A stretch of DNA of 64,000 nt from Streptomyces sp. WAC 01529 (GTDB lineage: Bacteria > Actinomycetota > Actinomycetes > Streptomycetales > Streptomycetaceae): contig NZ_CP029617.1 in NCBI RefSeq assembly GCF_003945545.1, positions 7,653,001 through 7,717,000 of the forward strand, given 5' to 3'. Below are positions 9,235 to 43,764 of the stretch, one piece after another. The number at the start of each line of letters is the position of its first letter. Within the stretch, counting starts at the first letter, position 1. The position numbers and the translations under genes were made by a program. The notes under the pieces were generated by a model, which was not told the origin of the DNA, made no database searches, and was given only the letters and a program-made list of their open reading frames with translations.

Positions 9235-9325
9235 GGCGGGCGCCCCCCCGGGGCCCGCACTGGCTGAGGCAGGCGTCCAACGGTGCCCGCACCGGCTGAG
9301 GCAGGCGTCCGCCAGGGTCGGCATC
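9229..9325. repeat. Three direct repeats between MFS and GNAT genes
   Basis: GGCTGAGGC(G/A)GGCG-type units begin at 9229, 9262 and 9294, each 32-33 bp long. The first overlaps the MFS stop codon. They are not inverted, so this is a tandem duplication rather than a terminator. Confidence 0.6.
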
Positions 9326-9404
9326 GGGCGGGGCGTGCTCGGGCAGGATGCACCCGGTGCGGTTTCCTCACGGCGCACCACGGCGGATCGAGAAGGGTGC
9401 AGCG

Positions 9405-10262: not shown

Positions 10263-10296
10263 CCGGCCGGGCTCCGGGCAGCGCGAGACAGCACGG

Positions 10297-10335
10297 CGCC
10301 ACGGGCCGGGGACACATGGTCCCCGGCCCGTGGCG
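10297..10335. terminator. Strong hairpin terminator
   Basis: CGCCACGGGCCGGGGA pairs perfectly with TCCCCGGCCCGTGGCG (16 bp) over a 7-nt loop. It sits 35 bp past the GNAT stop and 59 bp before the convergent antitoxin-like gene end, so it may serve both. Confidence 0.8.
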
Positions 10336-10393
10336 TGCGGGAGTACGCGGGCTCAGCTGCTCCAGGTGTGGACGAAGGCGTGGGCCGCCGCCG

Positions 10394-10591
10394 TCACCGC
10401 TGGGACGAGGGAGGCTCCTGGCCGCTGTCCCCGCCGAACTGTTCCCGGAGCCTGTCCTGAGCGGTGTCGACCTGTCCGCTGTACTTGCCCTGGGTCTTCC
10501 CGTCGACGAAGTCGCCGGCCTTGTCGATGCCCTGGCCGGCCTTTTCCTCGTGGCCCTTGAGCATCTGCTTGAGCTTGTCCATCACAGACAT
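10394..10591 (-). CDS. MT0933-like antitoxin family small protein
   Basis: 65 residues: MSVMDKLKQMLKGHEEKA then GIDKAGDFVDGKTQGKYSGQVDTAQDRLREQF, a pattern characteristic of the mycobacterial MT0933-type antitoxin family (also called CsbD-like in older notes). AGGAGG precedes the ATG. It is a very charged, likely helical or unstructured protein. No toxin gene is adjacent, so the antitoxin name reflects family membership only and not a demonstrated toxin-antitoxin pair. Confidence 0.75.
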   Translation of the reverse strand: MSVMDKLKQMLKGHEEKAGQGIDKAGDFVDGKTQGKYSGQVDTAQDRLREQFGGDSGQEPPSSQR

Positions 10592-10672
10592 CGTCGGCCT
10601 CCTAGGTGTGAGCCGTCGGTACCAGCATGGGGCGTCATCGCCCGCACCGCATCCGGGGCCGCTCCCGCCCCC

Positions 10673-12988
10673 TCAGGTGATCGTCAGCCGCCGCTTGGCC
10701 CCGGCCTCGGAGCTGGCGCCGACGTAGAGGTCCACCGCGCCCTCCTCGACGCGGAACTCCCCCTCCTGGGCGTTGGTCCAGAAACCGAGATCGTCGGCGC
10801 CGATCCGGAAGCGGACAGTCCTGGATTTTCCGGGCTCCAGCGTGACCCGGCGGAAACCGCGCAGCTTGCGCACCGGCTGGGTGATGCTCGCCGCGATGTC
10901 ATGGACGTACAACTGGACGACCTCGTCGCCCGCGCGGTCCCCGGTGTTGGTGACGCTCACCGACACCTCCAGAGTGTCGCCCTCGCGCAGGGCGGCCGCG
11001 GAGATGCGCTCGCGGCTCAGCCTCGGCTCGCCGATCGCGAAGGTCGTGTAGCTCAGGCCGTGCCCGAACGCGAACTGCGGGCCGGGGGGCAGGTCCAGAT
11101 ACTTCGACGTGTACTTGTTCTCCGCGTCGTAGGGGCGGCCCGTCGACTCGTGGTTGTAGTGGACCGGGATCTGTCCGACCGTGCGCGGGAACGACACGGG
11201 CAGCTTGCCGCCGGGGACTGCCTTGCCGAAGAGCACGTCGGCGATGGCGTTGCCCGCCTCCAGGCCCGGATGCCAGGCTTCAAGGACGGCGGGGGCGGAG
11301 CCGAGCCAGTCGCCCATGGTCAGCGGGCGGCCGTTGACCAGGACGACCACGAACGGCTTCCCGGTCGCCGCGACGGCCGCCACCAGCTTCTCCTGGCCGC
11401 CGGGCAGACCGATGTCGCTGCGCGCGGCGGCCTCACCGCTCATCGCGGGCGGCTCGCCCACCACGACCACCGTGACCTCGGCGGACCTCGCGGCGGCCAC
11501 CGCCTTCGGAATGCCCGCGGTGTCCCCGCCCTCCGGGGCGACGCCCCGGGCGTACGTCACCTTCGCGTCCGGTACCGCGCGCCGGACGGCGTCGAGGACC
11601 TTCACCGAGGGGTACTTCTTCACGGCACCCGCAAACGACCACGTGCCGAGGAGGTCGTCGGAGTCGCCGAACGGGCCGACGACCGCGAGGGACTTGACGG
11701 AGCGCTTCAGGGGGAGCGCCTTGTCCTCGTTCTTCAGGAGGACCATCGAGCGGGCGGCCGCCGCACGTGCCGCCTCGCGCGCGGCGGGGGTCGGGCCGTC
11801 GATGGCGGCGCTCTCGTCCACGTACGGATCCTCGAAGAGCCCGAGGTCGGCCTTGAGGCGCAGGACGCGGGTGACCGCGTCGTCGAGCCGCCGCTCGCTG
11901 ATCCTGCCCTCGCGCAGCAGCTTCTTGCCGTGCACGACGAGATGCGTGCTGGTCATCTCTATGTCGACGCCCGCGTTGAGGGAGAGGCGGGCCGCGGCCG
12001 CGCCGTCCTCGGCGAAGCCGTGCGGGATCAGCTCCTGGACGCCGGCCCAGTCGCTGACGACGACGCCGTCGAAGCCCCACTCCTTCTTCAGGATGTCGGT
12101 GAGGGTGTGGGTGTTGCCGTGCGCGGGGATGCCGCTGACGGTGTTGAAAGAGGCCATGACCGTGGCCGCGCCCGCGTCCAACGCCGCCTTGAACGGCGGG
12201 AGGTAGAGCGCGCGCAGTCGTGACTCCGAGACGTCCACGGTGTTGTAGTCGCGCCCGCCCTCCGCGCCGCCGTAGGCCACGAAGTGCTTGGCGCAGGCGG
12301 CGACCCGGTCCTTCGCGCCGTACGCCGCGCGGCCGTCGTCGTCCGGCTCGCCCTGGTAGCCCCGCACCTTCGCCGCGGCGAACGCCGCCGTCAGCCAGGG
12401 ATCCTCGCCGTTGCTCTCGGCGATCCGGCCCCAGCGGGGCTCGTGCGTGACGTCCATCATCGGGGAGAACGTCCAGTGCACGCCGTTCGAACGGGCCTCC
12501 CGCGCCGAGACCTCGCCGTCCGCCTCGGCCACGTCCGGGTCGAAGCTCGCCGCCTGCGCCAGCGGGATCGGGAACGTCGTCCAGAAGCCGTGGATGACAT
12601 CGAGCCCGAAAAGCAGCGGAATGCCGAGCCGGGACTCCTCGACGGCGATGCGTTGCAGGGCGTTGGTGGTCTTCGCGCCGTAGACGCTGAGCACCGAACC
12701 GAGCCGTCCCGCGCGGGCCGCGTCCTCCACGTCCTTCGTGGCACCGCCGCCGGGGCCGGTCTCCCAGGCCCACGGGAGCTGCTGGAGCTGCCCCAGCTTC
12801 TCTTCGACCGTCATACGGGCGAGCAGCCCCCGGATCCTGTGGTCGTGGCGGGCGGCCGCGGGCCCGGGCCGGCCGGGCGCGGCCTCGGCGGCGGCCGTTT
12901 CCGCTGCTCCGGCGGCACCCACCGCGCCTCCCGCGACCGCCGTGCCGCCGATCGCGGACAGCAGAGTACGCCTTCGTACATCGCGCAT
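10673..12988 (-). CDS. Tat-exported GH3 beta-glucosidase/xylosidase
   Basis: 771 residues. RRRTLLSAIGG at the N-terminus followed by an Ala-rich stretch is a twin-arginine signal. The GH3 N-terminal TIM barrel (about 55-390) holds KHF (about 234) and the nucleophile Asp of VVSDWAG (about D313). The C-terminal alpha/beta sandwich has GEPPAMSGEAAARSD, which supplies a loop acid. A fibronectin III-like domain closes the protein (about 680-765). This is a BglX-like layout that releases terminal beta-linked glucose or related sugars from oligosaccharides outside the membrane. It stands alone. Precise sugar specificity cannot be inferred. Confidence 0.92.
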   Translation of the reverse strand: MRDVRRRTLLSAIGGTAVAGGAVGAAGAAETAAAEAAPGRPGPAAARHDHRIRGLLARMTVEEKLGQLQQLPWAWETGPGGGATKDVEDAARAGRLGSVLSVYGAKTTNALQRIAVEESRLGIPLLFGLDVIHGFWTTFPIPLAQAASFDPDVAEADGEVSAREARSNGVHWTFSPMMDVTHEPRWGRIAESNGEDPWLTAAFAAAKVRGYQGEPDDDGRAAYGAKDRVAACAKHFVAYGGAEGGRDYNTVDVSESRLRALYLPPFKAALDAGAATVMASFNTVSGIPAHGNTHTLTDILKKEWGFDGVVVSDWAGVQELIPHGFAEDGAAAARLSLNAGVDIEMTSTHLVVHGKKLLREGRISERRLDDAVTRVLRLKADLGLFEDPYVDESAAIDGPTPAAREAARAAAARSMVLLKNEDKALPLKRSVKSLAVVGPFGDSDDLLGTWSFAGAVKKYPSVKVLDAVRRAVPDAKVTYARGVAPEGGDTAGIPKAVAAARSAEVTVVVVGEPPAMSGEAAARSDIGLPGGQEKLVAAVAATGKPFVVVLVNGRPLTMGDWLGSAPAVLEAWHPGLEAGNAIADVLFGKAVPGGKLPVSFPRTVGQIPVHYNHESTGRPYDAENKYTSKYLDLPPGPQFAFGHGLSYTTFAIGEPRLSRERISAAALREGDTLEVSVSVTNTGDRAGDEVVQLYVHDIAASITQPVRKLRGFRRVTLEPGKSRTVRFRIGADDLGFWTNAQEGEFRVEEGAVDLYVGASSEAGAKRRLTIT

Positions 12989-13166: not shown

Positions 13167-15086
13167 ATGAGCATGGAAACCACCGCCTGGAACCAGCTGT
13201 ACAGCGTCATGCACGCACAGCAGGACCGCCGCCCCTTCGCCCGTGCCACGCTGCGCCGCATCGGCGCCTTCGCGCGGCCCCACCGCACACGCATCTGGCA
13301 GTTCGTGCTGCTGAGCGTCGTCACCGCACTGCTGGCCGTCGCGACCCCCGTACTCGCGGGGAAGGTCGTCAACGCCATCGTCTCCGGCGCCGACTCCGCG
13401 ACCGTCGTGCGCTACGCCCTGCTGATCGCCGCCATCGCGCTCGCCGAGGCCGGGATCGGACTGCTGAGCCGCTGGCTCTCGGCGAACCTCGGTGAAGGGC
13501 TCATCCTCGACCTGCGGACCGCCGTCTTCGACCACGTCCAGCGCATGCCCGTCGCCTTCTTCACCCGCACCCGCACCGGGGCGCTCGTCAGCCGCCTCAA
13601 CAACGACGTGATCGGCGCGCAGCGCGCCTTCAGCAACACACTCTCCGGGGTCGTCGGCAACATCGTCACCCTGCTGCTCACCCTCGTCGTCATGCTCACC
13701 CTTTCGTGGCAGATCACCCTGCTGGCGCTGGTCCTGCTCCCCGTGTTCGTCGTGCCCGCCCGCCGCATGGGATCGAAGATGGCCAGGCTCCAGCGGGAGG
13801 CCGCCCACCACAACGCCGCCATGGGCACCCGGATGACCGAGCGCTTCTCTGCGCCCGGCGCCACCCTGATCAAGCTCTTCGGCCGGCCCGGCGACGAGTC
13901 CGCCGAGTTCGCGGCGCGGGCCCACCGGGTGCGTGACATCGGCGTACGCACCGCCATGACGCAGTCCGCGTTCATCACCGCGCTCACCCTGGTCTCGGCG
14001 CTCGCCCTCGCCCTGGTCTACGGCCTCGGCGGGTACTTCGCCCTGGAGGGCACGCTGAAGGCGGGGGCCATCGTCTCGCTCGCGCTGCTGCTCACCCGGC
14101 TCTACGCGCCGCTGACGTCCCTCGCGGGAGCGCGCGTCGAGGTCATGAGCGCGCTCGTCAGCTTCGAGCGGGTCTTCGAGATCCTCGACCTGAAGCCGCT
14201 CATCGAGGAGAAGAAGGACGCGGTGCCCGTCCCCGAAGGCCCCGTGGCCGTCGAGTTCGACAACGTCCGCTTCGGCTACCCCGCCGCCGACAAGGTCTCC
14301 CTCGCCTCCCTCGAAGAGGTCGGCTCGCTCGACACCCGCGGCGGCGACGAGGTCCTGCACGGCGTGTCGTTCCGCGCCGAACCCGGCCAGACCATCGCGC
14401 TCGTCGGCTCCTCCGGAGCGGGCAAGTCGACCATCGCGCAACTGCTGCCTCGGCTGTACGACACCGACGAGGGGAGCGTGCGGATCGGCGGCGTCGACGT
14501 ACGCGACCTGACCGCCGAGTCCATGCGGGCCACCCTCGGCATGGTCACCCAGGACGGTCACCTCTTCCACGAGTCCGTCCGTGACAACCTGCTCCTCGCG
14601 AGGCCCGGCGCGACCGAGGACGAACTCTGGGACGTGCTGCGGCGCTCCCGGCTCGAAGACCTCGTGCGCTCCCTGCCCGACGGGCTCGACACGGTGGTCG
14701 GCGAGCGCGGCTACCGGCTCTCCGGCGGCGAGCGGCAGCGGATGACCATCGCCCGGCTGCTCCTGGCACGCCAGCGGGTCGTCATCCTCGACGAGGCGAC
14801 GGCCCACCTCGACAACACCTCGGAGGCCGCCGTCCAGGAAGCACTCGGCGAGGCCCTCGCGGGACGCACCGCCGTGGTGATCGCCCACCGGCTCTCCACG
14901 GTGCGCTCCGCCGACCTGATCCTCGTCGTCGAGGCGGGGCGGATCGTGGAGCGCGGCACGCACGAGGAACTGCTCGCGCTGGAGGGGCGGTACGCGGAGC
15001 TGTACCGCACGCAGTTCGCCAAGGGAGCCCACGCGGCGGAGCCTGCGGGGACGGCGGGCGCGGCGGAGCCGGTGGGTGCCGTCTGA
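13167..15086 (+). CDS. ABC exporter half-transporter (fused membrane and ATPase domains)
   Basis: 639 residues. Six membrane helices occupy about 45-320 (IWQFVLLSVVTALLAVATPVLAG first). The ATPase domain has Walker A GSSGAGKST, signature LSGGERQRM, Walker B RVVILDEAT and switch His in VVIAHRLS. It is an ABCB-type exporter that works as a homodimer, probably pumping out a hydrophobic or redox-active compound. The SoxR-type promoter links it to SoxR-controlled ABC transporters known in Streptomyces, which respond to endogenous redox-active antibiotics. The ATG at 13167 lies 7 bp past the -10, with no room for a leader ribosome site. Confidence 0.88.
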   Translation: MSMETTAWNQLYSVMHAQQDRRPFARATLRRIGAFARPHRTRIWQFVLLSVVTALLAVATPVLAGKVVNAIVSGADSATVVRYALLIAAIALAEAGIGLLSRWLSANLGEGLILDLRTAVFDHVQRMPVAFFTRTRTGALVSRLNNDVIGAQRAFSNTLSGVVGNIVTLLLTLVVMLTLSWQITLLALVLLPVFVVPARRMGSKMARLQREAAHHNAAMGTRMTERFSAPGATLIKLFGRPGDESAEFAARAHRVRDIGVRTAMTQSAFITALTLVSALALALVYGLGGYFALEGTLKAGAIVSLALLLTRLYAPLTSLAGARVEVMSALVSFERVFEILDLKPLIEEKKDAVPVPEGPVAVEFDNVRFGYPAADKVSLASLEEVGSLDTRGGDEVLHGVSFRAEPGQTIALVGSSGAGKSTIAQLLPRLYDTDEGSVRIGGVDVRDLTAESMRATLGMVTQDGHLFHESVRDNLLLARPGATEDELWDVLRRSRLEDLVRSLPDGLDTVVGERGYRLSGGERQRMTIARLLLARQRVVILDEATAHLDNTSEAAVQEALGEALAGRTAVVIAHRLSTVRSADLILVVEAGRIVERGTHEELLALEGRYAELYRTQFAKGAHAAEPAGTAGAAEPVGAV

Positions 15087-32014: not shown

Positions 32015-33346
<1,332 letters not shown>

Positions 33347-33370
33347 GGCGGGCTGCCGGCCCGGCGGCTG

Positions 33371-34141
33371 TCAGCGGGCCGGTTCGATCCCCCAGGCGGC
33401 GGCTCTGGCGGCGGCGGCCGCGCGGTTGGGGAGGTCGAGCTTGGTGAGGATGTGTTCGACGTGGGTGCCCACGGTGCGGGGCGTGATGTACAGCCGCTCG
33501 GCGATCTCCCGGTTGGTGCGGCCGGTGGTCAGTTCGGCCAGCACCTGAAGCTCCCGTGGCGAGAGCCCGCCGGGCCGCCGTGCTTCCGGGGTGGCCTCCT
33601 CGGCCGGCCCCTCGGCGGACGTGCCGACGCGGGGGTCGAGGGCCGCGGCGAGGGACTCGGTGAGCAACGTGACCACGGCGCGCGCCGGGTCGGGCGTGCG
33701 CCGGGGGCGGCGCGTGCTGACGTTCAGCATGCCGACGTACCGTCCGTCGGAGGCGAACAGGCACTGGGCCACCCCGTCCTCGATGCCGAGGGGGGCCAGG
33801 ACCTCCTGGAAGCCGGGCGAGGACGCCAGGAGCCGGCCGGGGACGTCCCTGAGCCAGAGGCCGTCCCGGGCCGGGCCGCGGAGCACGGTGAAGACCGGGT
33901 CGTGGTGGAGGCGGGCCTCGATGTAGGCCGTGGCGTCGTCCGGATAGCTCCCGGCCAGCGTGGTGTGGCGGCGACGCAGGGGATCCCACCGGGCCAGGGA
34001 CGCGTGGTCGTACTCCACCACCTCCGACAGCGCCGCCAGGACCGTGTCGACGCCGGCCGCACCCCTCGTGGCGCTCCTGGCCGCCTCGCGGACGTGGACG
34101 GCCGCGTCCAGGATGTCCGCCGTGCTCCGCTCCGTTGTCAT
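33371..34141 (-). CDS. LuxR-family transcriptional regulator with GAF-like sensor
   Basis: 256 residues. N-terminal sensor of a GAF-like fold (about 15-165: DTVLAALSEVVEYDHASLARWDPL...GVAQCLFASDGRYVGMLNVSTRR), then a C-terminal LuxR HTH (about 190-250): LSPRELQVLAELTTGRTNREIAERLYITPRTVGTHVEHILTKL. No receiver Asp, so it is not a classic response regulator. The start ATG at 34141 has GGAG almost adjacent. It lies 31 bp downstream of the amidohydrolase gene on the same strand, so the two are probably co-transcribed and it may regulate that enzyme. Confidence 0.82.
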   Translation of the reverse strand: MTTERSTADILDAAVHVREAARSATRGAAGVDTVLAALSEVVEYDHASLARWDPLRRRHTTLAGSYPDDATAYIEARLHHDPVFTVLRGPARDGLWLRDVPGRLLASSPGFQEVLAPLGIEDGVAQCLFASDGRYVGMLNVSTRRPRRTPDPARAVVTLLTESLAAALDPRVGTSAEGPAEEATPEARRPGGLSPRELQVLAELTTGRTNREIAERLYITPRTVGTHVEHILTKLDLPNRAAAAARAAAWGIEPAR

Positions 34142-34172
34142 TCTCCGAGGATGATCATGTGCCCGGAGTACG

Positions 34173-35915
34173 TCAATCGCGCTCGGTCGGGCTCTCTCCC
34201 TCGGTTGACTCCCGCTCACGAAGAGTGTCGTGCACGACCTGCCCGTCCACGACGGTGAGCACGACGGGCATTTGAGGGATGTCGTGGGGGTCGGCGCCGA
34301 GCAAGTCCCCGTCGAGCACGCAGAGGTCGGCGACCTTGCCCGGCTCCAGGGAGCCCTTCCAGTCGTCGGCGAAGTCCTGCCAGGCCGCGTCGATCGTGTA
34401 CGTACGGATCGCCTCGGCCAGACCGATGCGCTGCTCCGGGCCGCTGACCCGGCCCGCGGCCTTCGACTCGCGCAGCACCATGGTGGCGATGCCCTGGCGC
34501 CAGTCGGGGTCCGTGACCGGGGCGTCGGAGCCGCTCGCCACCCGTACGCCCGCGTCGATGGCATCCCGGTAGGGCCACGCGTACGCCGCGCGCTCGGTGC
34601 CGACGAACTCCTCCTCCATGTCGGCGACGGTCCACTTGATGGTGGGGTTCATGTTGACGCCGAAGCCGTGCGCGGCCAGCACCTTCATGCTGTGCGGGGT
34701 GAGGAAGTCGCCGTGGATGACGTAGTGGCGGGCGTCGGGCCGGGGGTGCTCGGCCATGGCCGCCGCGAAGGAGTCCGCGACGGCGTCGCAGCCCCGGTCC
34801 CCGGTGACGTGGACGCCCAACTGGTGCCCGGCGACGTGGGCGTGCCGGATCATGGCGTCCATCTCGGCGGTCCGGTCGGCGTCGGTCTCCCCGCCCACGC
34901 ACAGGGAGCCGCAGCCGCCGCCCACGTACGGCTCGTTCATCCAGGCCGTCTTGTTGGGCACGACACCGTCGGCGAAGATCTTGACCCCGTGGATCGCGAG
35001 GCGGCGCGGATCGGCCTCGCCGCACGCGGCGAGTCCGGCCAGGGAGCGGGCGAACTCCTCGGCGGTGCTCGCCATTCCGGTGGGCAGCAGCAGGACGCCG
35101 AGGCGGGCGGTGAGTTCGCCGTCGGCCAGCAGCTGACGGTAGACGTCGAGGGTCTGCGTGCCGAGCGCGCCGCGCATGATGCCGTCGCCGCCGGGGCCGA
35201 GCCCGGGCTCGGTGTAGCTGGTGATGCCGAGCCGGGCGAGCGAGGCGAGGGCCGACTTGACCGCGTCGATGCGCTCCTGCCGGCTCAGCGGCGGCAGCGC
35301 GTTCTGGATGAGGGCCTGCGCTCCCTCGTGGAGCAGCCCGGTCGGCTCCCCTTCCCCGTCCACGACGATGGCCCCGCCGGGCGGCGCGACGGTGTGCGCG
35401 TCGATCCCGATGAGTTCCAGCGCCTTGGAGTTGACCCAGGTGGCGTGCCCGGAGAAGGAGTACAGGACGACGGGGTGGTCCGGGCTCACGGCGTCGAGGT
35501 CGTGCCGCGAGGGCATCCGCGACGGATCGGCGACACACTCCGCGAGATAACCGGGGTCCCAGCCGTGCCCCGTGATCCACTGCCCGCCCGGAACACGCCC
35601 GACGGCCTCCCGTACCGAGTCGGCCACGTCCGCGAGCGAGGAGACGGCGGGGTGGCCGACGTCGAGGGAGAGCGGAGGCGACGCCATGCCGTAGGCGCAC
35701 CCGTGCAGATGGGAATCGTTGATCCCGGGAAGGAGCGTCGCACCCCGCAGATCGACGACCCGGGTGCCGGGCCCGACGAGCGGCGCGACATCGTCCCGCG
35801 TGCCGACGGCGCTGATGACCCCGCCGCTCACCGCGAGGGCCGAGGCGACGGAGAACCGCGCGTCCACGGTGACCACCTGCCCGCCGAAAAACACCAGATC
35901 CGCATACGTGTCCAC
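34173..35915 (-). CDS. YtcJ-like metal-dependent amidohydrolase
   Basis: 580 residues, amidohydrolase_3 type. Metal ligands: HLHG in NDSHLHGCAYG, carboxylated-Lys region GVKIFADGV, His in HVTGDRGCDAV and YVIHGDF, and Asp in ASGSDAPV. Other blocks are GHATWVNSKALELIGI and WRQGIATMVLRE. The family hydrolyses amides or formyl groups of diverse small molecules; YtcJ relatives act on N-acyl compounds. GTG 35915 has GAGAGGA 7 bp upstream and was preferred over 35945. It is followed by the LuxR gene. Confidence 0.83.
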   Translation of the reverse strand: MDTYADLVFFGGQVVTVDARFSVASALAVSGGVISAVGTRDDVAPLVGPGTRVVDLRGATLLPGINDSHLHGCAYGMASPPLSLDVGHPAVSSLADVADSVREAVGRVPGGQWITGHGWDPGYLAECVADPSRMPSRHDLDAVSPDHPVVLYSFSGHATWVNSKALELIGIDAHTVAPPGGAIVVDGEGEPTGLLHEGAQALIQNALPPLSRQERIDAVKSALASLARLGITSYTEPGLGPGGDGIMRGALGTQTLDVYRQLLADGELTARLGVLLLPTGMASTAEEFARSLAGLAACGEADPRRLAIHGVKIFADGVVPNKTAWMNEPYVGGGCGSLCVGGETDADRTAEMDAMIRHAHVAGHQLGVHVTGDRGCDAVADSFAAAMAEHPRPDARHYVIHGDFLTPHSMKVLAAHGFGVNMNPTIKWTVADMEEEFVGTERAAYAWPYRDAIDAGVRVASGSDAPVTDPDWRQGIATMVLRESKAAGRVSGPEQRIGLAEAIRTYTIDAAWQDFADDWKGSLEPGKVADLCVLDGDLLGADPHDIPQMPVVLTVVDGQVVHDTLRERESTEGESPTERD

Positions 35916-36218
35916 AGAAGGGTCCTCTCGAAGAACCGGGCGCACCGGGGCCGCCCGCGAACGATCTCCCGAGGACTATGGCGGCGCCCCGGCCCTCCCC
36001 GCATCGGTCGACCGACCGATGGCAGCGGGTCGGCTCAGCTGCTTTCAGGACAGTGGCGAGAAATCCGGCCAGACCTCGGTCCGCGTGATCCCGAGTACCC
36101 GGTGAAACCCTTGACGTCTCAGCAGGTGGACTATTAGCCTCATGATCGTTTAATCACATTAATTGCGGGTTCAACCTGCACGGGGGAATGCGGTAAAAGT
36201 GCTCGGAAGTTCGAGATC
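35916..36218. promoter_or_regulatory. 303-bp gap with the promoter of the six-gene operon
   Basis: No gene fits here. TTGACG at 36111-36116 and TAGCCT at 36135-36140 (18-bp spacer) give a good sigma-70-type promoter reading into the MFS gene, with about 70 bp of leader. Around 36140-36200 the sequence is much AT-richer than the region (CGTTTAATCACATTAATTGC), suggesting foreign origin or an open regulatory segment. The opposite amidohydrolase promoter must also lie here. Confidence 0.6.
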
Positions 36219-37508
36219 GTGTCCGTGACGAATAAAGAGAAGACGGAGGGAGGGAAACAGAAGGCAAAGTTCACGCCCCTCCTCAAGGCCCCGGTATTCC
36301 GGCGGTTCTTCATCAGCCGCGCCATTTCTCTCATCGGTGACGCGGTCGTGCCGACCGCCCTGGCCCTCAGTCTCGTGGCGCGCGAGGCCTCCGCCGTCTG
36401 GCTCGGCGCCATGATGGCCGCGGCGATCCTCCCCAAGGTCCTCCTCCTTGCGATCGGGGGAGTGGCCGCCGACCGACTGCCCAAGCGGCCGTTGATGGTC
36501 GCCTCCTCGGTCGTGTGCGGGCTCGCCCAGATCGGTACGGCGGCGGTCTTCCTGGCCGACCTGCCCCTGGGGTGGGCGCTCGCCTGCCAGGCCGCGTTCG
36601 GCATGTCGATGGCGATCGGCTACCCCGCGACGTTCGGCTACCTGCCGCACTGCGTCGAGCCCGCGGACCTCGGCGCCGCCAACGCCCTCGTCGGAGCGTG
36701 GACCGGGACGGCGTCCCTGCTCGGCCCCACCGTCGCCGCGGTGAGCGCCGCGCTCGGGCCGCCCTCCGTGGCGCTCGCGGTGGACGGGGCCTCCTTCCTG
36801 ATCAGCGCCGCACTCCTGGCGGGCCTGCCGCGTGGGGAGTCCACCGGACCGCCCCGGCCCGCGGGGGCCGGGCTGCGCGAGGGCTGGCAGGCGCTGCGCG
36901 GCCTGCCCTGGCTGCTGCGGATGACGGTGGTCGACAGCCTCATCCTGCTTCTGGTCGCCGCGCCCTTCATGGTGCTCGGGCCCGGCATCGTGCAGCGCCT
37001 CACCCCCCATGGGTGGGCCCTGCTGATGGTCTCCTTCGCCCTGGGCGAGCTGCTGGGCAGTCTCGCCTGCGGCCGCGCGCGGCTGCGCCGCCCGATCCTG
37101 ACCGCCGCGCTCGGACTGCTGGCGATGGGTCTGCCTCCCCTGCTGCTCGCCTCGGGCGCGGGAGTGCCGGCCCTGTGCGCCGCACAGTTCCTCGCGGGCG
37201 GAGGCATCGCCGCGTACGGCGTGCTCGTCAACACCGCCATCCAGCAGACCGTTCCGGCCGACCGGCTGTCCCGGGTCGGGGCGATCTCCTCGATCGGCTC
37301 CTTCGCCTTCCTGCCGCTCGGGTATGTGCTCGCCCCGCTCCTCGCGAGCGTCGTCGGCCCCGAGCCGTTGCTGTGGATCGCCGCGGTCTGGACGTTCGCC
37401 TCCGTCGGTGCACTGGTCTCGGACCGTGCCCTGCGTGAATTCGGCCCCCGTTCATCCGCCGAACCCGCCCGGGGTGCCTCGGGACGAGAACCTGGAAAAG
37501 AGCAATGA
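36219..37508 (+). CDS. MFS exporter, first gene of the six-gene operon
   Basis: 429 residues, twelve hydrophobic segments. FRRFFISRAISLIGDAVVPTALALSLVAREASAVWLGAMMAAAILPKVLLLAIGGVAADRLPKRPLM is typical of MFS_3-type (enterobactin-exporter-like) members; exporters of secondary metabolites are common there. The first 20 residues are Lys-rich with AT-rich codons (AAT, AAA, AAG runs), unlike nearby genes. GTG start with GGAAG 9 bp upstream. It overlaps the next gene by 4 bp (ATGATG). It presumably exports the product or provides self-resistance. Confidence 0.85.
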   Translation: MSVTNKEKTEGGKQKAKFTPLLKAPVFRRFFISRAISLIGDAVVPTALALSLVAREASAVWLGAMMAAAILPKVLLLAIGGVAADRLPKRPLMVASSVVCGLAQIGTAAVFLADLPLGWALACQAAFGMSMAIGYPATFGYLPHCVEPADLGAANALVGAWTGTASLLGPTVAAVSAALGPPSVALAVDGASFLISAALLAGLPRGESTGPPRPAGAGLREGWQALRGLPWLLRMTVVDSLILLLVAAPFMVLGPGIVQRLTPHGWALLMVSFALGELLGSLACGRARLRRPILTAALGLLAMGLPPLLLASGAGVPALCAAQFLAGGGIAAYGVLVNTAIQQTVPADRLSRVGAISSIGSFAFLPLGYVLAPLLASVVGPEPLLWIAAVWTFASVGALVSDRALREFGPRSSAEPARGASGREPGKEQ

Positions 37509-38719
37509 TGCCGGTCACCCGTCATTCCAGCGTGGCCGACTGGGCCCGCGGCATATCGCCGGGATTACCGGCACCGGAAATAGAGAGGACCGTTCCGTGG
37601 CTGACCGCGGAGGAAGGGAGAATCAGCCGTGAGCAGTACGTTCTCGGTTCCGGACCGATTGACTCCGGAAATTGCGATGCGCCGTTGCCCGGAGGTCTCG
37701 GCGCGCAATTCGCGACCTGTTATGTGATTCCGCACGACTGCCCGCACACCACCTACGCCACCTGGTCCGTCCTCTTCGGCTCCCCGGTACGGGACCTCCT
37801 GCACCGCCTGCCGGACGACGCGCGGTCGGACCGGCTGCGGCAGGCGGCGGAGCTGGGGCGGCGGGTGCGCGTGGAGGACACCGACACCCTCGCCGTCATC
37901 TCACCCGGATCGACACGGCCGGGTGTCACCGCGGGCGGGGAGCGGGCCCTGGCCGCTCTGGTGTCCGGCGCCGAGCGGATCGCGGCCGAACAGGGCCTGC
38001 CGGTGGTCGAGTTCGGCAACGTACGCGACGAACCCGAATGGACCGCGCTGCACCGGATCCTGCGCGAGCGCGGGTACGTGCCGGTGACCACCGGAGCCGA
38101 CGCGGTCCTCGACGTCCCCACCGAGGGGCTCGACGCCTACTTCGACGGTTTCCGCTCCCACCGGCGCAAGGTGCTCCGCAAGGAACGGGCCCGCTTCCTG
38201 GACCGTCGGCCCCGCGTCGCCGTCCTTGGCGCCGAGGGCCTGACCCCCGACCTGGTGGAGCTGCAGCTCGACCGGTACCGGCGCTACGGGCACGAGGCCG
38301 ACGCCGATGCCGTACGCGACCGGTTCCGGCGCGCCCTTTCGATCCCGGGACTGCGCGTCCTGCGCGCCGACGGCGAGGGCGGCCCGCTCGGGTTCGTCGC
38401 CTTCTACGAAGATCTCCCGCACCGACGCCTCGTGCCCCGCCTCGGCGCGTTCAGCACCGAGGACCGGGGCAGCTACTTCAACCTCGCCTACTACGAACTC
38501 ATCGCCCACGCGGCGCGAGGCGGCGGCTTCCGCATCCACTACGGGGAGTCGACTTACGGCGCCAAGGCCGCCCGCGGTTGCCGACTGACCCGGCTCGTGA
38601 CCTACTTCCGCGCCGCCGACCCGCACCTGCACGACGCCCTCACCGCCGCCGGAGCCCTCCGTTCCCACCTCGAAGAGCGGGAGATCACCGCCGCCGAGGG
38701 CACATACGCCGCTTCCTGA
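37505..38719 (+). CDS. FemAB-like (peptidoglycan-bridge type) GNAT transferase with TTA codon
   Basis: 404 residues. C-terminal FemAB-like GNAT domain (about 200-390): YFDGFRSHRRKVLRKERARF, GFVAFYEDLPHRR, YFNLAYYELIAHAARGGGFRIHYGESTYGAKAARGCRLTRLVTYF. The last block is the signature of FemAB_like proteins, many of which transfer amino acids from aminoacyl-tRNA. The N-terminal half (ISREQYVLGSG, CYVIPHDCPHTTYATWSVLFGSPV) matches nothing I know. Leu21 is coded by TTA (37565-37567), the rare bldA codon. ATG start overlaps the MFS stop. It could charge an acceptor in a biosynthetic pathway. Confidence 0.75.
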   Translation: MMPVTRHSSVADWARGISPGLPAPEIERTVPWLTAEEGRISREQYVLGSGPIDSGNCDAPLPGGLGAQFATCYVIPHDCPHTTYATWSVLFGSPVRDLLHRLPDDARSDRLRQAAELGRRVRVEDTDTLAVISPGSTRPGVTAGGERALAALVSGAERIAAEQGLPVVEFGNVRDEPEWTALHRILRERGYVPVTTGADAVLDVPTEGLDAYFDGFRSHRRKVLRKERARFLDRRPRVAVLGAEGLTPDLVELQLDRYRRYGHEADADAVRDRFRRALSIPGLRVLRADGEGGPLGFVAFYEDLPHRRLVPRLGAFSTEDRGSYFNLAYYELIAHAARGGGFRIHYGESTYGAKAARGCRLTRLVTYFRAADPHLHDALTAAGALRSHLEEREITAAEGTYAAS

Positions 38720-38851
38720 CCGCAGGCCACGGCCCCCGGTCACCGCGCGGTGACCTGGCCATCACACCGGGCCCGATCCGGCCCCCGGCGCGCGCACTGC
38801 CGCGTGCGGGCCGGTTCAGCTTGCCCTTCCCAGCGAGGAGAGAGACCACCC

Positions 38852-40021
38852 ATGACCGCATCCGGTACCAGGACGCCCCTCGTCGGCATGGAGGTCTTCC
38901 GTGCCGCAGCCGACGTACGGCACCTGAACTCCGTGGACGTCGCCGGCGAGACGCACCCGCTGTCCCCCGTCTCCAGCGGCTTCGTCACCCTCCGCCCCCG
39001 CGGATTCAAGGAGGACATGACCGCGGTCCTCGGCGCACTCGGCTGGGGGCGGCCCGTGGCGTTCGTCGAGGACGCCTGCGGGCTGGCCGAGTTCACCGCG
39101 GCGGCCACCGAGTCCGAGTACCTGCCGGCCGTGGAGGGCAGCGCCGAGCCCGTCGCCTTCGTGGTGCCCACCCTGTTCCGCAACCGCCGGGCCGGATCGA
39201 TCGAGCGGCGTCTGACGAAGCGGAGCGCGACTGCCTTACCGCTCCCGTGCGCCGCCGCGCCCAGAGAGGCCGCGCCCAGAGACGCCGCCCACCTCTCGAA
39301 GCCCCAGCGCGTACGCGCCGTGGGGGTGGGTCCCTGGACGCCCGCCGGAGGCGAGGAGGCCCTCGGCTCCCTGGACACCGGTTGTCCCGTGGTCATGACC
39401 GACTGGACGTACCGCCACACCTTCACCAGGACCCCCGGCCACGAACGGTTCCGGCCGCACGTACTCCCTTACCGCTACGGCGACTTCGACCAGAACATCG
39501 ACCAGGTGGACGAGGCGCTGAGCGAGCTGCACGCCGCCGGCCACGACCGCGTCGGCCTGCTCGTCGAGGGCAACCCCGACACCTACGACGTCCTCGACGG
39601 CCTCCCGCTCACCGGCCGTGAAATCCACGTCACACCCGGTATCCCGATCGGCCTGCTCGCCGCCGCGCAGACCGCCCGGTACTTCTGGGAGGACCCCTTC
39701 GACCGGTCCTTCGCCTACCTCTCGGGGCTCCACGGCCGCCACAGCCTGCCACCCCAGCAGTTCCTCGGCGAACTCACCAGCTACCTCTCCGCGGGCATCA
39801 CCTGCGTCCTGGTGGAGATGCACAAGGGCGATGTCGAACTCGCCCTCGAAGCCGTCCGGCTCTGCGGCCAGGAGAAGTCCGCCGTGCTGATGAGCAACCA
39901 CTTCTCCAGCGAGGAGGAGACGGTCTTCCTTCCCGGCACCCCGGAGGGGCTCCGGGCAGGGCTGCCCGCCGACCGAGGGGGCCTGTCCACCCTGCTGATC
40001 GCCGATGGAGGCCTGCGATGA
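38852..40021 (+). CDS. Orphan tetrapyrrole-methylase-fold (CobJ-like) SAM protein with TTA codon
   Basis: 389 residues. From about residue 145 the sequence follows the precorrin methylase fold: AVGVGPWTPAGGEEALGSLDTG, VGLLVEGNPDTYDVLDGL (place of the SGDPGIY loop), VTPGIPIGLLAAAQTARYFWEDPF, YLSGLHGRHSLP and the closing STLLIADG. The N-terminal 140 residues (LNSVDVAGETHPLSPVSSGF, VAFVEDACGLAEFT) are unfamiliar. No other corrin gene is near, so a corrin substrate is unlikely; this fold is also used to N-methylate peptides. Codon 129 is TTA (39236-39238). GAGGAGAG precedes the ATG. Confidence 0.72.
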   Translation: MTASGTRTPLVGMEVFRAAADVRHLNSVDVAGETHPLSPVSSGFVTLRPRGFKEDMTAVLGALGWGRPVAFVEDACGLAEFTAAATESEYLPAVEGSAEPVAFVVPTLFRNRRAGSIERRLTKRSATALPLPCAAAPREAAPRDAAHLSKPQRVRAVGVGPWTPAGGEEALGSLDTGCPVVMTDWTYRHTFTRTPGHERFRPHVLPYRYGDFDQNIDQVDEALSELHAAGHDRVGLLVEGNPDTYDVLDGLPLTGREIHVTPGIPIGLLAAAQTARYFWEDPFDRSFAYLSGLHGRHSLPPQQFLGELTSYLSAGITCVLVEMHKGDVELALEAVRLCGQEKSAVLMSNHFSSEEETVFLPGTPEGLRAGLPADRGGLSTLLIADGGLR

Positions 40022-40740
40022 CCCGCGACCTGCTGCCCGCCGTACTGTTCGACGCCGCCGACACCCTGCTCGAACTCACCCCCGCCTTCCCCGAACTGCT
40101 CTCCACCCCCTGGCTCGGGGACGAGGGGGCACCCTCGGCGCAGGACGTGCGCGAAGCACTGTGGGCCATCGGCGCGGAAGGCCACTGGCCCGACGACGAG
40201 GCCGACCCGGGAGCCCGGCTGACCATGTGGACCGTGTTCTTCCGGGACGCCCTGCGCCGCGCGGGCGGCGCCGACTCCCTCCCGGCCGCCCGGCGCGCGG
40301 CCCGCTACGCCCTGGACCCCGCGAACTACCGCCTGTACCCCGACGTCCTGCCCTGCCTCGACGCACTCCGGGCATCCGGCCACCAGCTGGCCCTGGTCTC
40401 CAACTTCGACGGCTGGCTGCGGGAGATCCTCGCGGCACACCAACTCACCGACCGCTTCGACGAGATCGTCATCAGCAGCGAGGTCGGCCATGAGAAACCC
40501 CGCCCGGAGATCTTCGACCTGACCTGCCGAAGGCTCCGACGCCCCCCAGGGGAGTGCGTGTTCATCGGTGACTCGCTCGTCGTCGACGTCGACGGCGCAC
40601 GGGCCGCCGGCATGCACCCCCTCCTCATCGACCGCTACGCCCGCTTCCCCGACCACCCCGGCCCCAGGATCACCTCGCTCGAGACCCTGGCGGAGCTCGT
40701 GGCCCACCTCCCGCTCGCCCTCCCGAAGGACGCACGATGA
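40018..40740 (+). CDS. HAD-family hydrolase (HDHD3-like)
   Basis: 240 residues. HAD motif I is LFDAADTLLEL: the nucleophile Asp is present but the usual Asp two residues on is Ala, as in HDHD3-like members. Motif II Ser in ALVSNFDGW, motif III Lys in SEVGHEKPRPEIF and motif IV GDSLVVDVDGARAAG are intact. It is probably a phosphatase or phosphoryl-transfer enzyme with altered acid/base chemistry. ATG overlaps the methylase-fold gene (ATGA) and its own end overlaps the kinase-like gene. In the operon it could remove a phosphate put on by the next gene. Confidence 0.82.
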   Translation: MTRDLLPAVLFDAADTLLELTPAFPELLSTPWLGDEGAPSAQDVREALWAIGAEGHWPDDEADPGARLTMWTVFFRDALRRAGGADSLPAARRAARYALDPANYRLYPDVLPCLDALRASGHQLALVSNFDGWLREILAAHQLTDRFDEIVISSEVGHEKPRPEIFDLTCRRLRRPPGECVFIGDSLVVDVDGARAAGMHPLLIDRYARFPDHPGPRITSLETLAELVAHLPLALPKDAR

Positions 40741-41768
40741 CGCACCCGACGCCCCGCGACACGGCAGCCGACACGGCAGTCGACACGGAGGTCGGCACGG
40801 CAGTGGACACCGACGCGGTGGCCCGCTCCGTCGCAGCCGAACACGGGCTGGTACCGCGCGGACCGGCCGGCGAGGGAGTGGACTTCGTGGTCCACCGCGT
40901 CGGCCGCCCCGGACTCGGCGACGCGGTGCTGCGCATCCCCCGGCACCGGCTGTACCTCTCCCCGTACGGCGACGTCGACAGCGCGGACCTGGTCCGCCAG
41001 GAGCACGCGATAGCCGCCCGCCTCGCCCCACTGGGGCTGCCCGTGGCGGCACCGCTCCAGCTGATCGAACGGCCGGACGGACTCCTCGTCTCCGTCGCCG
41101 CCCACGTCGAACACGACGACGTCCCCCTCGACGGCCGTGACGTAGGCCGCTTCCTCGCGGCACTGCACGCCACGACACCCCCCAAGACACCGCTCGCGTA
41201 CCAGGCACCAGGCGATTTCACCGGCTTCTTCGTCAAACGGCTCGGAGACCGGCACGCCAACCTGCGGCGCGCGGCTCCGACCTTGCCGCCGCTGCCCGCG
41301 CCCCCACACATCGGCGCGGCGCTGGAGGCCGTGCGCACCCCGCACCGGCTGCTGCATCTCGATGTCCGGCGGCAGAACCTGCTGAGCCGCGCGGGCCGGC
41401 TCCAGGCGGTCGTCGACTGGTCCAACGCCCTCGTCGGACCGCCGCTCATGGAACTCGCCAGAGTCGCCGAGTACGCCCTGCTGCCCGACAACGGGATCGA
41501 CGCGACCGCGGTCCTGGCCGGCTACGCGGAGTCGCTCGCCGCACCCGACCTCGAATCCCCGGCGGCCCTGCTGTACCGCCTGGACACCGCCATCATGCTC
41601 GCGCTGGTCTTCCACAGCGTGGCCCCGGACGCCGAGCGCGCCCAGATCCTCGCCGCACGGGCGGAAGACCTCCTCGGGCTCCTGCACACCGGCGGAGACC
41701 CGGCGCGGCTCGTGCGCCCCGCGGCCGGAGCCGGTAGGACTCCCGACCGAGGGGAGCGGCAGCACTGA
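40737..41768 (+). CDS. APH/choline kinase-like phosphotransferase
   Basis: 343 residues. Aminoglycoside phosphotransferase fold: a small lobe with EGVDFVVHRVG and VLRIPRH, a QEHAIAARLAPLGLPVAAP helix, catalytic loop LLHLDVRRQNLL (HxDxxxxN, catalytic Asp) and metal-binding Asp in AVVDWSNAL. The family phosphorylates hydroxyls of small molecules using ATP. The N-terminal 30 residues repeat D-T-A-V/E (DTAADTAVDTEVGTAVDTD). ATG overlaps the HAD gene by 4 bp. No resistance or antibiotic genes are near, so it may act on a pathway intermediate. Confidence 0.82.
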   Translation: MTHPTPRDTAADTAVDTEVGTAVDTDAVARSVAAEHGLVPRGPAGEGVDFVVHRVGRPGLGDAVLRIPRHRLYLSPYGDVDSADLVRQEHAIAARLAPLGLPVAAPLQLIERPDGLLVSVAAHVEHDDVPLDGRDVGRFLAALHATTPPKTPLAYQAPGDFTGFFVKRLGDRHANLRRAAPTLPPLPAPPHIGAALEAVRTPHRLLHLDVRRQNLLSRAGRLQAVVDWSNALVGPPLMELARVAEYALLPDNGIDATAVLAGYAESLAAPDLESPAALLYRLDTAIMLALVFHSVAPDAERAQILAARAEDLLGLLHTGGDPARLVRPAAGAGRTPDRGERQH

Positions 41769-42712
41769 TGGACGTCGTCGACCGCTACGGACTCACCGTC
41801 GCCGAACTCACCACCGAAGAGGCCCTCGACGTGACCGGGCCCTGGCGCGGGCCCGCCGTCGACCTGCTGCGGGTGGTCGATCCGCATCCCGACGACCGGA
41901 CCGCCCTCACGGCCGCCGGATTCGCCGTGAAGCCGAGCTGGGTCAACTGGGTCGCTCCGCTACGGGACTCCGAGGCCGCCTTCCTCGGTGCTCTCGGCGC
42001 CAACGAGCGGCGCAAGGTGCGCCGGGGCCTTGACCTCGCCGCCTCGTCCGGGCTGAGCGTGCGGGTGCGGCCGGAGCTGGAGGAGGGCCCGCTCGAGGAG
42101 TTCCTCGGCGTGTACGAGGCGCAGGTCGCCGGCATGCGCAACGGCCTGAACCTGGCCCGCGCCGAGCAGCGGACACTCCTGGAGCGCTCCGGTTCCCACA
42201 TCGGCGTCTATGCCTACGAGGGGGGCCGCATGGTGGGCGGGTGCATCTGCTGGGTGCGGGCGGAGGACTCACTCCTGCAACTGCGGTACGTGGCCACCGC
42301 CGCGGTCGACCAGCGCGGCGCCCTGACCCGCGCCGTGTACATGGCGGCGTTCCAGGCAGGCCGGGAGCTGGGCTGCGCCCGTATGTCCCTGGGGAACGAC
42401 ACTTCCCTGTACGGCCACGTCACTTCCCCCGGCCTGTACGGGTTCAAGAAGCGGCTCGGCTTCACACCGCTGCCCTCGGGGACCGTCGACCCAGGGGCGG
42501 GCGGTGACGAGGCGGACCGCTTCGTGTCGCTGCGCGCCCTGACCGACCCGTCGCTCCTGCTCGCCCACGACACGGGGTCCGGCACGGACGACTCCCGGGG
42601 CCTCCGGCTGCATGTCCTCGCCTCACGGGACGACGTGGACGTGGCGCCCTACCGCGCGGACTTCCTCAGCGGGGTCACGGTAACCGTGATCCCGGAGGCG
42701 TCGCCGTCCTAG
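41768..42712 (+). CDS. FemAB/BioF2-like GNAT transferase, last gene of the six-gene operon
   Basis: 314 residues. FLGALGANERRKVRRGLDLAASSGLSVRVRPEL is the FemAB-type helix and RYVATAAVDQRGALTRAVYMAAFQAGRELGCARMSLGNDTSLYGHVTSPGLYGFKKRLGFTPLP is the Acetyltransf_6/FemAB C-terminal block. It is a different subfamily from the 37505 gene. It probably joins an acyl or aminoacyl group to an amine. Its ATG shares one base with the stop of the kinase gene (TGATGG), the tightest coupling in the operon. Its TAG stop shares the CTAG tetramer with the convergent transporter gene. Confidence 0.78.
   Translation: MDVVDRYGLTVAELTTEEALDVTGPWRGPAVDLLRVVDPHPDDRTALTAAGFAVKPSWVNWVAPLRDSEAAFLGALGANERRKVRRGLDLAASSGLSVRVRPELEEGPLEEFLGVYEAQVAGMRNGLNLARAEQRTLLERSGSHIGVYAYEGGRMVGGCICWVRAEDSLLQLRYVATAAVDQRGALTRAVYMAAFQAGRELGCARMSLGNDTSLYGHVTSPGLYGFKKRLGFTPLPSGTVDPGAGGDEADRFVSLRALTDPSLLLAHDTGSGTDDSRGLRLHVLASRDDVDVAPYRADFLSGVTVTVIPEASPS
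42709..42712. other. Shared CTAG: both convergent genes stop in one palindrome
   Basis: The plus-strand GNAT gene uses TAG at 42710-42712 and the minus-strand transporter uses TAG at 42709-42711, so the two stops overlap within CTAG. No terminator fits between them. Confidence 0.9.
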
Positions 42713-43764
42713 GAGCCGATGCGCTCGCGGCGCCTGGAGTGCCGGTGCGGGGTCCCGCAGTGCGCCCGGGCGGGCGCCGCGGGCTGGGGCGGCACGGCGG
42801 GGAGAGTCTCAAGGGCGCGGCCCGCCTCGGCCACGACGGGCTCCGGGCGTACGCGCGGCGCTTCCTGGAGTGTGCGGTCCTGGGCCGTACGACCCTGGGC
42901 CGGGGGGCAGGGCTCGGGCGCCGTCGACGTCTCCCGGGCGATCCGCTCGCTGGTGAGCAGGATCAGGCCACCGGCCGCGACGACCGCGCAACCCAGCGCC
43001 AGGAGGGTGCCCGTCATGCCGTAGCGGAAGGTTTCTCCGAAGAGGGTCAGGCCGACCGCCGCCGCCACCACGGGGTTCACGACGGTCACCGTCGACAGCG
43101 GTGCCGCCAGGCCCGCGCCCCGGTACGAGGCCTGCGAGAGCAGCACCCCGGCCGCCGCGAGCACGGCGATCACACCGAGGCTCGGCAGCTGCTGGACGAG
43201 CGCGACATCCCGGTCCCAGTCGACCGCCACCGTCTTGGTGAAGACCGAGGCGATGCCGAACGCCGCACCGGCCGCGCAGGCGAGCAACACGCTGCGCACC
43301 ACGGGGTGCCGGTGCGCCGCGTGCGCCGCCACCATCAGGGCGAGGACCCCGCCACCCGTGACCAGGCCCAGCATGACCCGCTCCGCGCTGTCCAGGGACT
43401 GCGAGCCGGACGCCGAGGTGAGAGAAAGGAGCCCGGCGAGCCCCACCGTCGCCATGATCGCGCCGCGCCACGCGGTGGCCCCGGCCCGGCGGCGCACGAA
43501 CACGGCCGCCATCGGCAGCGCGAAGACGATCGTCAGGGCGCCCAGCGGCTGGACCAGGCTGAGCGGGCCGTAGGCGAGCGCCACCACGTGCAGGAGCGCG
43601 CCGAGGCCGTTCAGGGCGATCGCCGTCCACCAGGTGCCGCGCCGCAGCGGCGCGTACCGCTGGTCCGGCGTGGTCGCCGCCACGCGCTCCTGGAGGATCG
43701 CCCCGCCGGCGTACGCCACCGCGGAGACGAGGGAGAGCAGCACGGACAGCGCGAGGGCACTCAT
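42709..43764 (-). CDS. DMT-type (EamA-like) membrane transporter
   Basis: 351 residues. Ten hydrophobic segments in two five-helix halves: VLLSLVSAVAYAGGAILQERVAATTPDQRYAPLRRGTWW, LHVVALAYGPLSLVQPLGALTIVFALPMAAVFVRRR, then the second half from VVRSVLLACAAGAAFGIASVFTK to GLILLTSERIA. This matches the Streptomyces DMT family related to Mg2+/NIPA-like or EamA transporters. The last 60 residues form a Pro/Arg-rich cytosolic tail. The substrate is unknown. It is convergent with the six-gene operon and probably unrelated to it. Confidence 0.8.
   Translation of the reverse strand: MSALALSVLLSLVSAVAYAGGAILQERVAATTPDQRYAPLRRGTWWTAIALNGLGALLHVVALAYGPLSLVQPLGALTIVFALPMAAVFVRRRAGATAWRGAIMATVGLAGLLSLTSASGSQSLDSAERVMLGLVTGGGVLALMVAAHAAHRHPVVRSVLLACAAGAAFGIASVFTKTVAVDWDRDVALVQQLPSLGVIAVLAAAGVLLSQASYRGAGLAAPLSTVTVVNPVVAAAVGLTLFGETFRYGMTGTLLALGCAVVAAGGLILLTSERIARETSTAPEPCPPAQGRTAQDRTLQEAPRVRPEPVVAEAGRALETLPAVPPQPAAPARAHCGTPHRHSRRRERIGS

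Follow-up and report, generated by a model that had tools for sequence, protein, structure and literature searches.

Gene content, promoter and coding evidence

The window analyzed here is a 64,000-base stretch of the Streptomyces sp. WAC 01529 genome (bases 7653001-7717000 of 8.27 Mb, single contig), and the subject of this report is an operon of six co-directional open reading frames (ORFs) within it. The operon encodes a predicted major facilitator superfamily (MFS) exporter, two putative FemAB-like ligases (FemA1 and FemA2), a protein whose C-terminal domain resembles tetrapyrrole methylases (TPM), a HAD-like protein, and a predicted APH-fold kinase. In window positions, the operon and its upstream region read as follows.

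36111-36140, plus strand: promoter-like site TTGACG ... TATTAG/TTAGCC (from the sequence; conserved in loci L005 and L006, introduced below)
36141-36208, plus strand: conserved leader with a short inverted repeat (alignment of 3 loci)
36219-37508, plus strand: predicted MFS exporter (PF07690, 84.2 bits against a cut-off of 33.4)
37505-38719, plus strand: FemA1, putative FemAB-like GNAT-type ligase (PF04339, 19.0 bits, below the cut-off of 27)
38852-40021, plus strand: TPM, an N-terminal domain followed by a tetrapyrrole-methylase-fold domain (hhalign, Foldseek)
40018-40740, plus strand: HAD-like protein (PF00702, 86.0 bits; alignment of 7)
40737-41768, plus strand: predicted APH-fold kinase (PF01636, 71.7 bits against 23.2; alignment of 7)
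41768-42712, plus strand: FemA2, putative FemAB-like ligase (PF04339, 14.7 bits, below the cut-off of 27)

From 5' to 3', the junctions measure -4, +132, -4, -4, and -1 bp, and third-position GC of the six genes is 0.86 to 0.92. The ORF list and the sequence reproduced the six ORFs, their strand, their overlaps, and the 132-bp gap exactly where an earlier note on this DNA, made from the sequence alone, had placed them. The FemA2 gene and a convergent DMT gene share 4 bp at their 3' ends. A Pfam scan of the six genes found no nonribosomal peptide synthetase (NRPS) or polyketide synthase (PKS) gene, as the same note had held, and no feature characteristic of pathways to phosphonate, azoxy, uridyl-peptide, or streptothricin compounds.

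All six genes were found in the same order in Streptomyces xanthophaeus NRRL B-5414 (L005) and Streptomyces sindenensis JCM 4164 (L006), two loci that came from a contig scan with the TPM protein; this arrangement is referred to here as type A. Protein identities to the window were 83 to 92% for S. xanthophaeus and 73 to 83% for S. sindenensis. Homologues across Streptomyces were thus clustered, in order, in 3 species rather than scattered, bearing out the expectation of a conserved set of genes that travel together. The type A genes are under purifying selection, with ratios of nonsynonymous to synonymous substitution rates (dN/dS) of 0.19 to 0.37 in all 18 pairwise gene comparisons among the three loci.

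Conservation extended upstream of the coding sequence. The promoter-like site at 36111-36140, where a promoter had been proposed, and about 70 bases downstream of it were kept across the three type A loci. The inverted repeat of the leader reads GCGGGT...ACCTGC in the window and GCAGGT...ACCTGC in S. sindenensis, and the leader is possibly regulatory; a 17-mer of it had one exact genome match and one match with 2 mismatches, and a reversed-pattern control also had 1 match. The gap between the FemA1 and TPM genes is 132 bp in S. xanthophaeus and 121 bp in S. sindenensis. A coding role for this gap was rejected because the in-frame upstream starts of the window are absent from both, and by eye the palindrome of the window's gap is not kept in either locus.

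The TPM, HAD, APH, and MFS proteins

The TPM protein divides into an N-terminal domain (about residues 1-150) and a tetrapyrrole-methylase-fold domain (about residues 151-389). The window protein had no Pfam (PF00590 up to E 1), NCBIfam, PHROG, or PDB sequence match, and its N-terminal 150 residues had no match in the same scans; a homologue in the related locus L043 (type B, see below) gave 13.9 bits to PF00590, against a cut-off of 27.8, in the expected part of the protein. When four TPM homologues were compared with ten tetrapyrrole methylases by hhalign, the score was 35.0 and the alignment colinear over residues 210-341, versus at most 25.6 in 100 column shuffles. A comparison of two shallow profiles, the TPM domain against the CobJ-like protein of loci L036 and L037, gave no support, whereas the larger 10-member set was supportive. 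A Foldseek search with the C-terminal-domain model (predicted local distance difference test [pLDDT], 46.4) returned 604 PDB matches with E values up to 10, of which 45 were at E ≤ 0.001. The titles of the 50 matches listed name members of this fold (CbiL, CobJ at rank 2, SUMT, RsmI, diphthine synthase, siroheme synthase, OphMA, and SonM), the exceptions being 3kwp, titled “putative methyltransferase,” and a small number of PH0725 entries that carry the gene name alone; other PH0725 entries are titled diphthine synthase.

Tetrapyrrole methylases carry a glycine-rich GxGPGDP loop, a GDP loop, and a PG loop. In the four aligned TPM homologues, the GVGP/GTGP and TPG loops are kept and GDP reads GNP (4 of 4), and in a mixed alignment with 8 PF00590 proteins of the same genome and 2 others (gene labels assigned here), the VGVGP, G-N-P, and TPG loops of TPM fell in register with those of the genome's own enzymes. 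Together, the models, the profile comparison, and the loops support a tetrapyrrole-methylase fold for the C-terminal domain, in line with the CobJ-type fold that the earlier note had assigned, with the rank of CobJ read from a low-confidence model. The window protein resembles class III tetrapyrrole methyltransferases and borosin N-methyltransferases in fold and in the GxGP, G-D/N-P, and PG loops; unlike them, it lies below Pfam detection, has an extra N-terminal domain, reads GNP for GDP, and stands outside a cobalamin or known borosin setting.

HAD phosphatases carry a nucleophile Asp, a motif II Ser, a motif III Lys, and a motif IV Asp, together with a general acid Asp at nucleophile+2. D12, S128, K160, D185, and D190 of the window protein were invariant in all seven aligned sequences, which keep the GDS...D motif, and the residue at nucleophile+2 was Ala in the same seven. 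Membership in the HAD family is clear, and the phosphatase role that had been ascribed to the protein is doubtful. Its best-scoring named NCBIfam subfamily was that of the REG-2-like proteins (TIGR02252; 105.7 bits), yet below the cut-off of 155.2. The kinase has the motifs HLDxxxxNL and DW, with H207, D209, N214, and D227 unchanged in all seven aligned sequences. Both the APH-like kinase and the MFS assignments proposed earlier held up above their Pfam cut-offs. Against NCBIfam, the MFS protein had weak matches to Tet(V) and Mef models, far below cut-offs.

The FemAB-like proteins and putative tRNA dependence

PF04339 matched all 13 aligned FemAB-like proteins (those of the clusters described here plus L035, L036, and L038, the window's two included) at E ≤ 0.1. 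The cut-off was passed by two of three FemB proteins (a third FemAB-like protein, found in the type C clusters below) and by distant relatives in L036, L038, and L039; FemA1 of L033 (24.6 bits) and the FemA2-like protein of L038 (20.8 bits) lay under the cut-off of 27. A joint FemAB-like profile matched the PDB entries 9wqy (3.3e-7) and 9wqw (4.6e-7), titled “aminoacyl-tRNA-dependent peptide synthase,” and its next match was at 0.4. The family profile is thus akin to a solved tRNA-dependent enzyme, which sustains the FemAB-type reading put forward earlier and suggests that the two window proteins may use charged tRNA.

FemA2 carries the motif GLYGFKKRLGF, and its Lys227 is invariant in 13 of 13 proteins; Lys354 of FemA1, invariant in six orthologues, occupies the same column. 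The joint profile aligns Lys227 with the Lys in iNRFKLGFGG of 9wqw, at modest alignment certainty. According to PMC12945691, the key residue is Lys305 of FemX-Wv and Lys329 of DhpH-C, to which Lys227 of FemA2 would correspond. The FemAB-like pair resembles enzymes that use aminoacyl-tRNA, and the operon is like the tRNA-dependent GNAT ligase systems described in that source in its small size as a cluster, its near-C-terminal invariant lysine, and the match of its ligase family profile to 9wqy/9wqw; unlike those systems, it has two such ligases plus a TPM-fold protein, a HAD protein, and an APH protein (PMC12945691).

Two further loci with FemAB-like proteins were observed. In L039 (G000:C1:1447500-1467400), within the window's own genome, a second FemA1-like gene stands beside genes for a methyltransferase, a radical SAM/PDZ protein, and a PhyH dioxygenase. 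In L038 (G069; 8476-10746), a FemA2-like gene (36% identity) adjoins a FemAB-like gene (36% over 190 residues of FemA1), and this pair lies near a DegT aminotransferase gene, without the other genes of the set.

Related clusters with exchanged ligase genes

Two further arrangements share parts of the operon. Type B, found in G1056 and in G913 (another genus of the same family), has the order LanB1-LanB2-MFS-TPM-HAD-APH and a length of about 9 to 9.5 kb, versus about 6.5 kb in the window. Identities to the window proteins were 55 to 58% for TPM, 62 to 67% for HAD, 57 to 63% for APH, and only 27 to 29% for MFS. All four LanB-like proteins of type B matched PF04738 and no other family at E 0.01, with no PF14028; this absence refers to the LanB-like proteins themselves, and the domain scan of type B neighbors covered a few in L043. 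The LanB-like pair resembles enzymes that use aminoacyl-tRNA, and LanB-like proteins without the elimination domain are described as peptide aminoacyl-tRNA ligases (PEARLs), one of which acts on a short nonribosomal substrate (PMC11212132). Each type B cluster has two LanB-like proteins that match PF04738 and not PF14028, like the PEARLs of that source (pearlins; SnaE of threopeptin); unlike in those systems, no carrier peptide or NRPS was noticed in type B, and its pair accompanies a TPM-HAD-APH core.

Type C (G036, L032; G007, L033; G280, L034) has the order radical SAM-(X)-APH-FemB-MFS-FemA1-HAD, with a radical SAM protein in place of TPM. Identities to the window were 62.6 to 63.6% for MFS, 51.1 to 53.8% for FemA1, 38.5 to 39.4% for HAD, and 29.6 to 36.0% for APH; TPM and FemA2 had no match in the three type C neighborhoods. 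HAD and APH are large families, so the identities of 30 to 39% between types A and C would mean little without the shared context, and it is FemA1 and MFS that tie these two types together. The radical SAM genes of L033 and L034 encode proteins 88% identical, and that of L032 lies 1.1 kb upstream and is only 25% identical to that of L033. Inside the type C cluster of L032, gene X (13710-14762) encodes 350 amino acids with a cysteine-containing stretch in the C-terminal part; it had no Pfam match at 0.1 and no NCBIfam match at 0.01. When 392 genus genomes were searched with a FemA1 profile, 82 had matches, including, besides the window's own genome, three strong ones (4.0e-133, 1.3e-118, and 3.2e-114). 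With a FemA1 profile built from six members, a search of 346 phylum genomes gave no match at E ≤ 1e-20 outside the window's own genome.

Each of the eight cluster loci compared (three of type A, two of type B, three of type C) has HAD and APH, and TPM pairs with FemA1 and FemA2 in type A and with two LanB-like proteins in type B. Ligase types, putatively tRNA-dependent, thus appear to have been exchanged around a constant core. As a tentative proposal, to which we give a little less than an even chance, these loci would represent a cluster family with a core of TPM-fold methyltransferase, HAD protein lacking the usual acid, and APH kinase, joined to interchangeable pairs of aminoacyl-tRNA-dependent ligases that are either FemAB-like or LanB/PEARL-like. 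Two unrelated tRNA-using machines for amide formation would then have replaced one another on a common scaffold, and the substrate of the TPM fold would be a small molecule derived from amino acids, distinct from both tetrapyrroles and borosin peptides.

A TPM-fold enzyme and a FemAB-like ligase also occur together in another kind of cluster, in L036 (G068), where Pfam identified a TP_methylase (CobJ-like by eye), a methyltransferase, a YqcI/YcgG-family protein, a Ham1-like protein, a Lysine_decarbox/LOG-type protein, and a FemA1-like protein. The ORFs of L035 (G084) and L037 (G123) resemble those of L036 by eye only; L037 also has a Pfam TP_methylase, and L035 has a P450 gene after the ligase gene. 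The FemA1-like proteins of L035 to L037 are 31 to 34% identical to that of the window.

Accessory location and distribution

The operon lies within a longer segment of the window, whose features and flanks are as follows.

32150-33346: transglycosylase/M23/LysM gene, flanking the segment 33371-42712
33371-42712, strand not assigned: segment absent from 6 of 6 relatives, comprising the LuxR-type regulator, the amidohydrolase, and the operon (tblastn, E 1e-20)
33371-34144, minus strand: LuxR-type regulator, part of the accessory segment, with an autoinducer-binding-like domain (domain scan)
34173-35909, minus strand: amidohydrolase, inside the accessory segment (domain scan)
42709-43764: DMT gene, flanking the segment 33371-42712

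The DMT protein had matches in 52 of 61 relatives, and the neighborhoods of six of those were compared. In all six, the transglycosylase/M23/LysM and DMT genes adjoin, 75 to 638 bp apart in five and 1378 bp in one (measured between tblastn match ends), and the LuxR-type regulator, amidohydrolase, and MFS protein of the window had no match at E 1e-20. With the flanking genes adjacent in every relative compared, the segment is therefore accessory, and an insertion in the window genome would account for it most simply. The window's amidohydrolase and DMT genes had no tblastn match in the 21-kb loci of S. xanthophaeus and S. sindenensis. Among nine direct-repeat families in 33200-43000, none paired both edges of the segment as att-like repeats would; TPM had no match in 72,556 plasmid records, and none of the six proteins had a PADLOC match to anti-phage defense at E 0.001.

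The TPM gene is rare. True matches numbered 1 in 295 genus genomes, 2 in 297 family genomes, and 3 in 293 order genomes, with 1 in 70 in the genus of G913 and 1 in 120 among relatives of G1056; these draws overlap, and the counts include the window genome or the genome at the center of the draw. Three short genus matches (L002 to L004; E 1.4e-4 to 7.5e-4) were dropped, as the operon proteins had no tblastn match there, and G1019, which is the S. xanthophaeus cluster again (same identities), was counted once. The distinct carriers found were the window genome, S. xanthophaeus, S. sindenensis, G913, and G1056.

TTA codons

The TTA codons reported earlier at 37565 (codon 21 of the FemA1 gene) and 39236 (codon 129 of the TPM gene, in a variable linker) were both present. 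A rough gene call of the window by GC frame, from which at least the operon's APH gene was absent, put TTA in 3 of 44 genes, two of them in the operon. The earlier note had taken these codons as a mark of developmental gating. Across the family, however, the six genes of S. xanthophaeus hold none and those of S. sindenensis hold one, in FemA1 at a different codon; neither type B cluster has any, and each of the three type C clusters has 1 to 3 in varied genes. TTA codons thus occur in five of the eight clusters, one to three in each, in varied genes and positions. Because the codons are unconserved, bldA gating was rejected as a defining feature of the set and TTA is no mark of the family; TTA does recur, so bldA control may operate within single strains.

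Proposed pathway and alternative explanations

Taken together, the conserved gene order, the purifying selection, the modular type B and type C relatives, the resemblance of the ligases to aminoacyl-tRNA-using enzymes, and the TPM fold make it fairly probable, in our judgment, that the operon is a horizontally moved biosynthetic cluster, free of NRPS and PKS genes. Its product would be a small compound derived from amino acids, assembled by two tRNA-dependent ligations onto a scaffold made by TPM, HAD, and APH and then exported. In the sequence of steps that we infer, these three proteins would form the core that makes and modifies the scaffold: TPM probably methylates with S-adenosylmethionine, APH would phosphorylate a hydroxyl, whether for self-protection or for activation, and HAD would work on the same intermediate, or on a phosphorylated one, in a reaction unlike that of a plain phosphatase. 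FemA1 and FemA2 would each move an aminoacyl group from charged tRNA to the scaffold, at an amine or a hydroxyl, and export of any product would fall to the MFS protein. Of the small export pathway suggested earlier, the conserved set and the lack of NRPS and PKS genes stand; a phosphorylated or N-methylated product stays conjecture. Among the titles and opening lines of abstracts that searches of open-license literature listed, none describes the gene set; a product paper in a subscription journal would escape such searches.

Several points weigh against this biosynthetic interpretation. For the ligases, no FemA1 or FemA2 orthologue scanned reached the PF04339 cut-off of 27, no FemX or FemA structure was among the joint profile's 6 PDB matches at E ≤ 10, the FemA1 profile alone found no related PDB chain, and the FemA2 profile alone reached 9wqy only at 0.03. 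For TPM, the hhalign probability was only 39% (48% for the C-terminal domain alone), Foldseek TM-scores were 0.28 to 0.54, and AlphaFold pLDDT was 39.8 for the full protein (3 sequences) and as low as noted above for the C-terminal domain, values so poor that no mechanism was read from the models. The HAD protein lacks the usual general acid in every sequence aligned. FemAB-type and PEARL-type ligations are chemically opposite in sense, so their swap need not be like for like. Finally, APH, GNAT-like, and MFS genes together would also suit a resistance cassette.

That last possibility, a resistance or detoxification island with drug modification by APH and the GNAT-like proteins, efflux by the MFS protein, and supporting roles for the remaining proteins, draws on the fact that all three are common resistance parts, on the MFS protein's weak Tet(V) and Mef matches (all far below cut-offs), and on the segment being an accessory insertion. 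We consider it rather unlikely: resistance sets are not known to combine a CobJ-fold protein with a HAD lacking the acid, TPM, HAD, and APH stay together while the MFS proteins and ligases vary, and the joint FemAB-like profile matched an aminoacyl-tRNA-dependent enzyme, with no aminoglycoside acetyltransferase among its 6 PDB matches. Quite unlikely, too, is a pathway for a ribosomally synthesized and posttranslationally modified peptide whose precursor is unrecognized or unlinked, in which TPM would N-methylate the backbone as in borosins and the ligases would extend or modify the peptide. The borosin methyltransferases SonM and OphMA were among the Foldseek matches to TPM, and the LanB and PEARL enzymes characterized so far work chiefly on ribosomal peptides (PMC11212132); however, the top Foldseek matches were CbiL, CobJ, and other tetrapyrrole or rRNA enzymes, a PEARL-like enzyme can take the short nonribosomal substrate already mentioned (PMC11212132), and no precursor gene was noticed at a glance over gaps and flanks, with no systematic search made. 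Tailoring of the cell wall, with the FemAB-like proteins altering peptidoglycan cross-bridges and the rest being accessory, is very improbable. FemAB-like (PF04339) proteins are named for peptidoglycan work and the transglycosylase/M23/LysM gene at 32150 adjoins the segment, but that gene belongs to the conserved surroundings outside the inserted segment, the set is rare (TPM in 3 of 293 order genomes), and its other parts are ill suited to wall synthesis.

Significance

If the biosynthetic interpretation is true, these loci would define a family of small-molecule clusters whose gene set lacks NRPS and PKS genes and would provide a new setting for TPM-fold enzymes. The larger finding lies outside the coordinates of the operon, in a modular family whose ligase types appear to be exchanged around a constant core; it would amount to a natural experiment in which two unrelated types of tRNA-dependent ligase serve one core.

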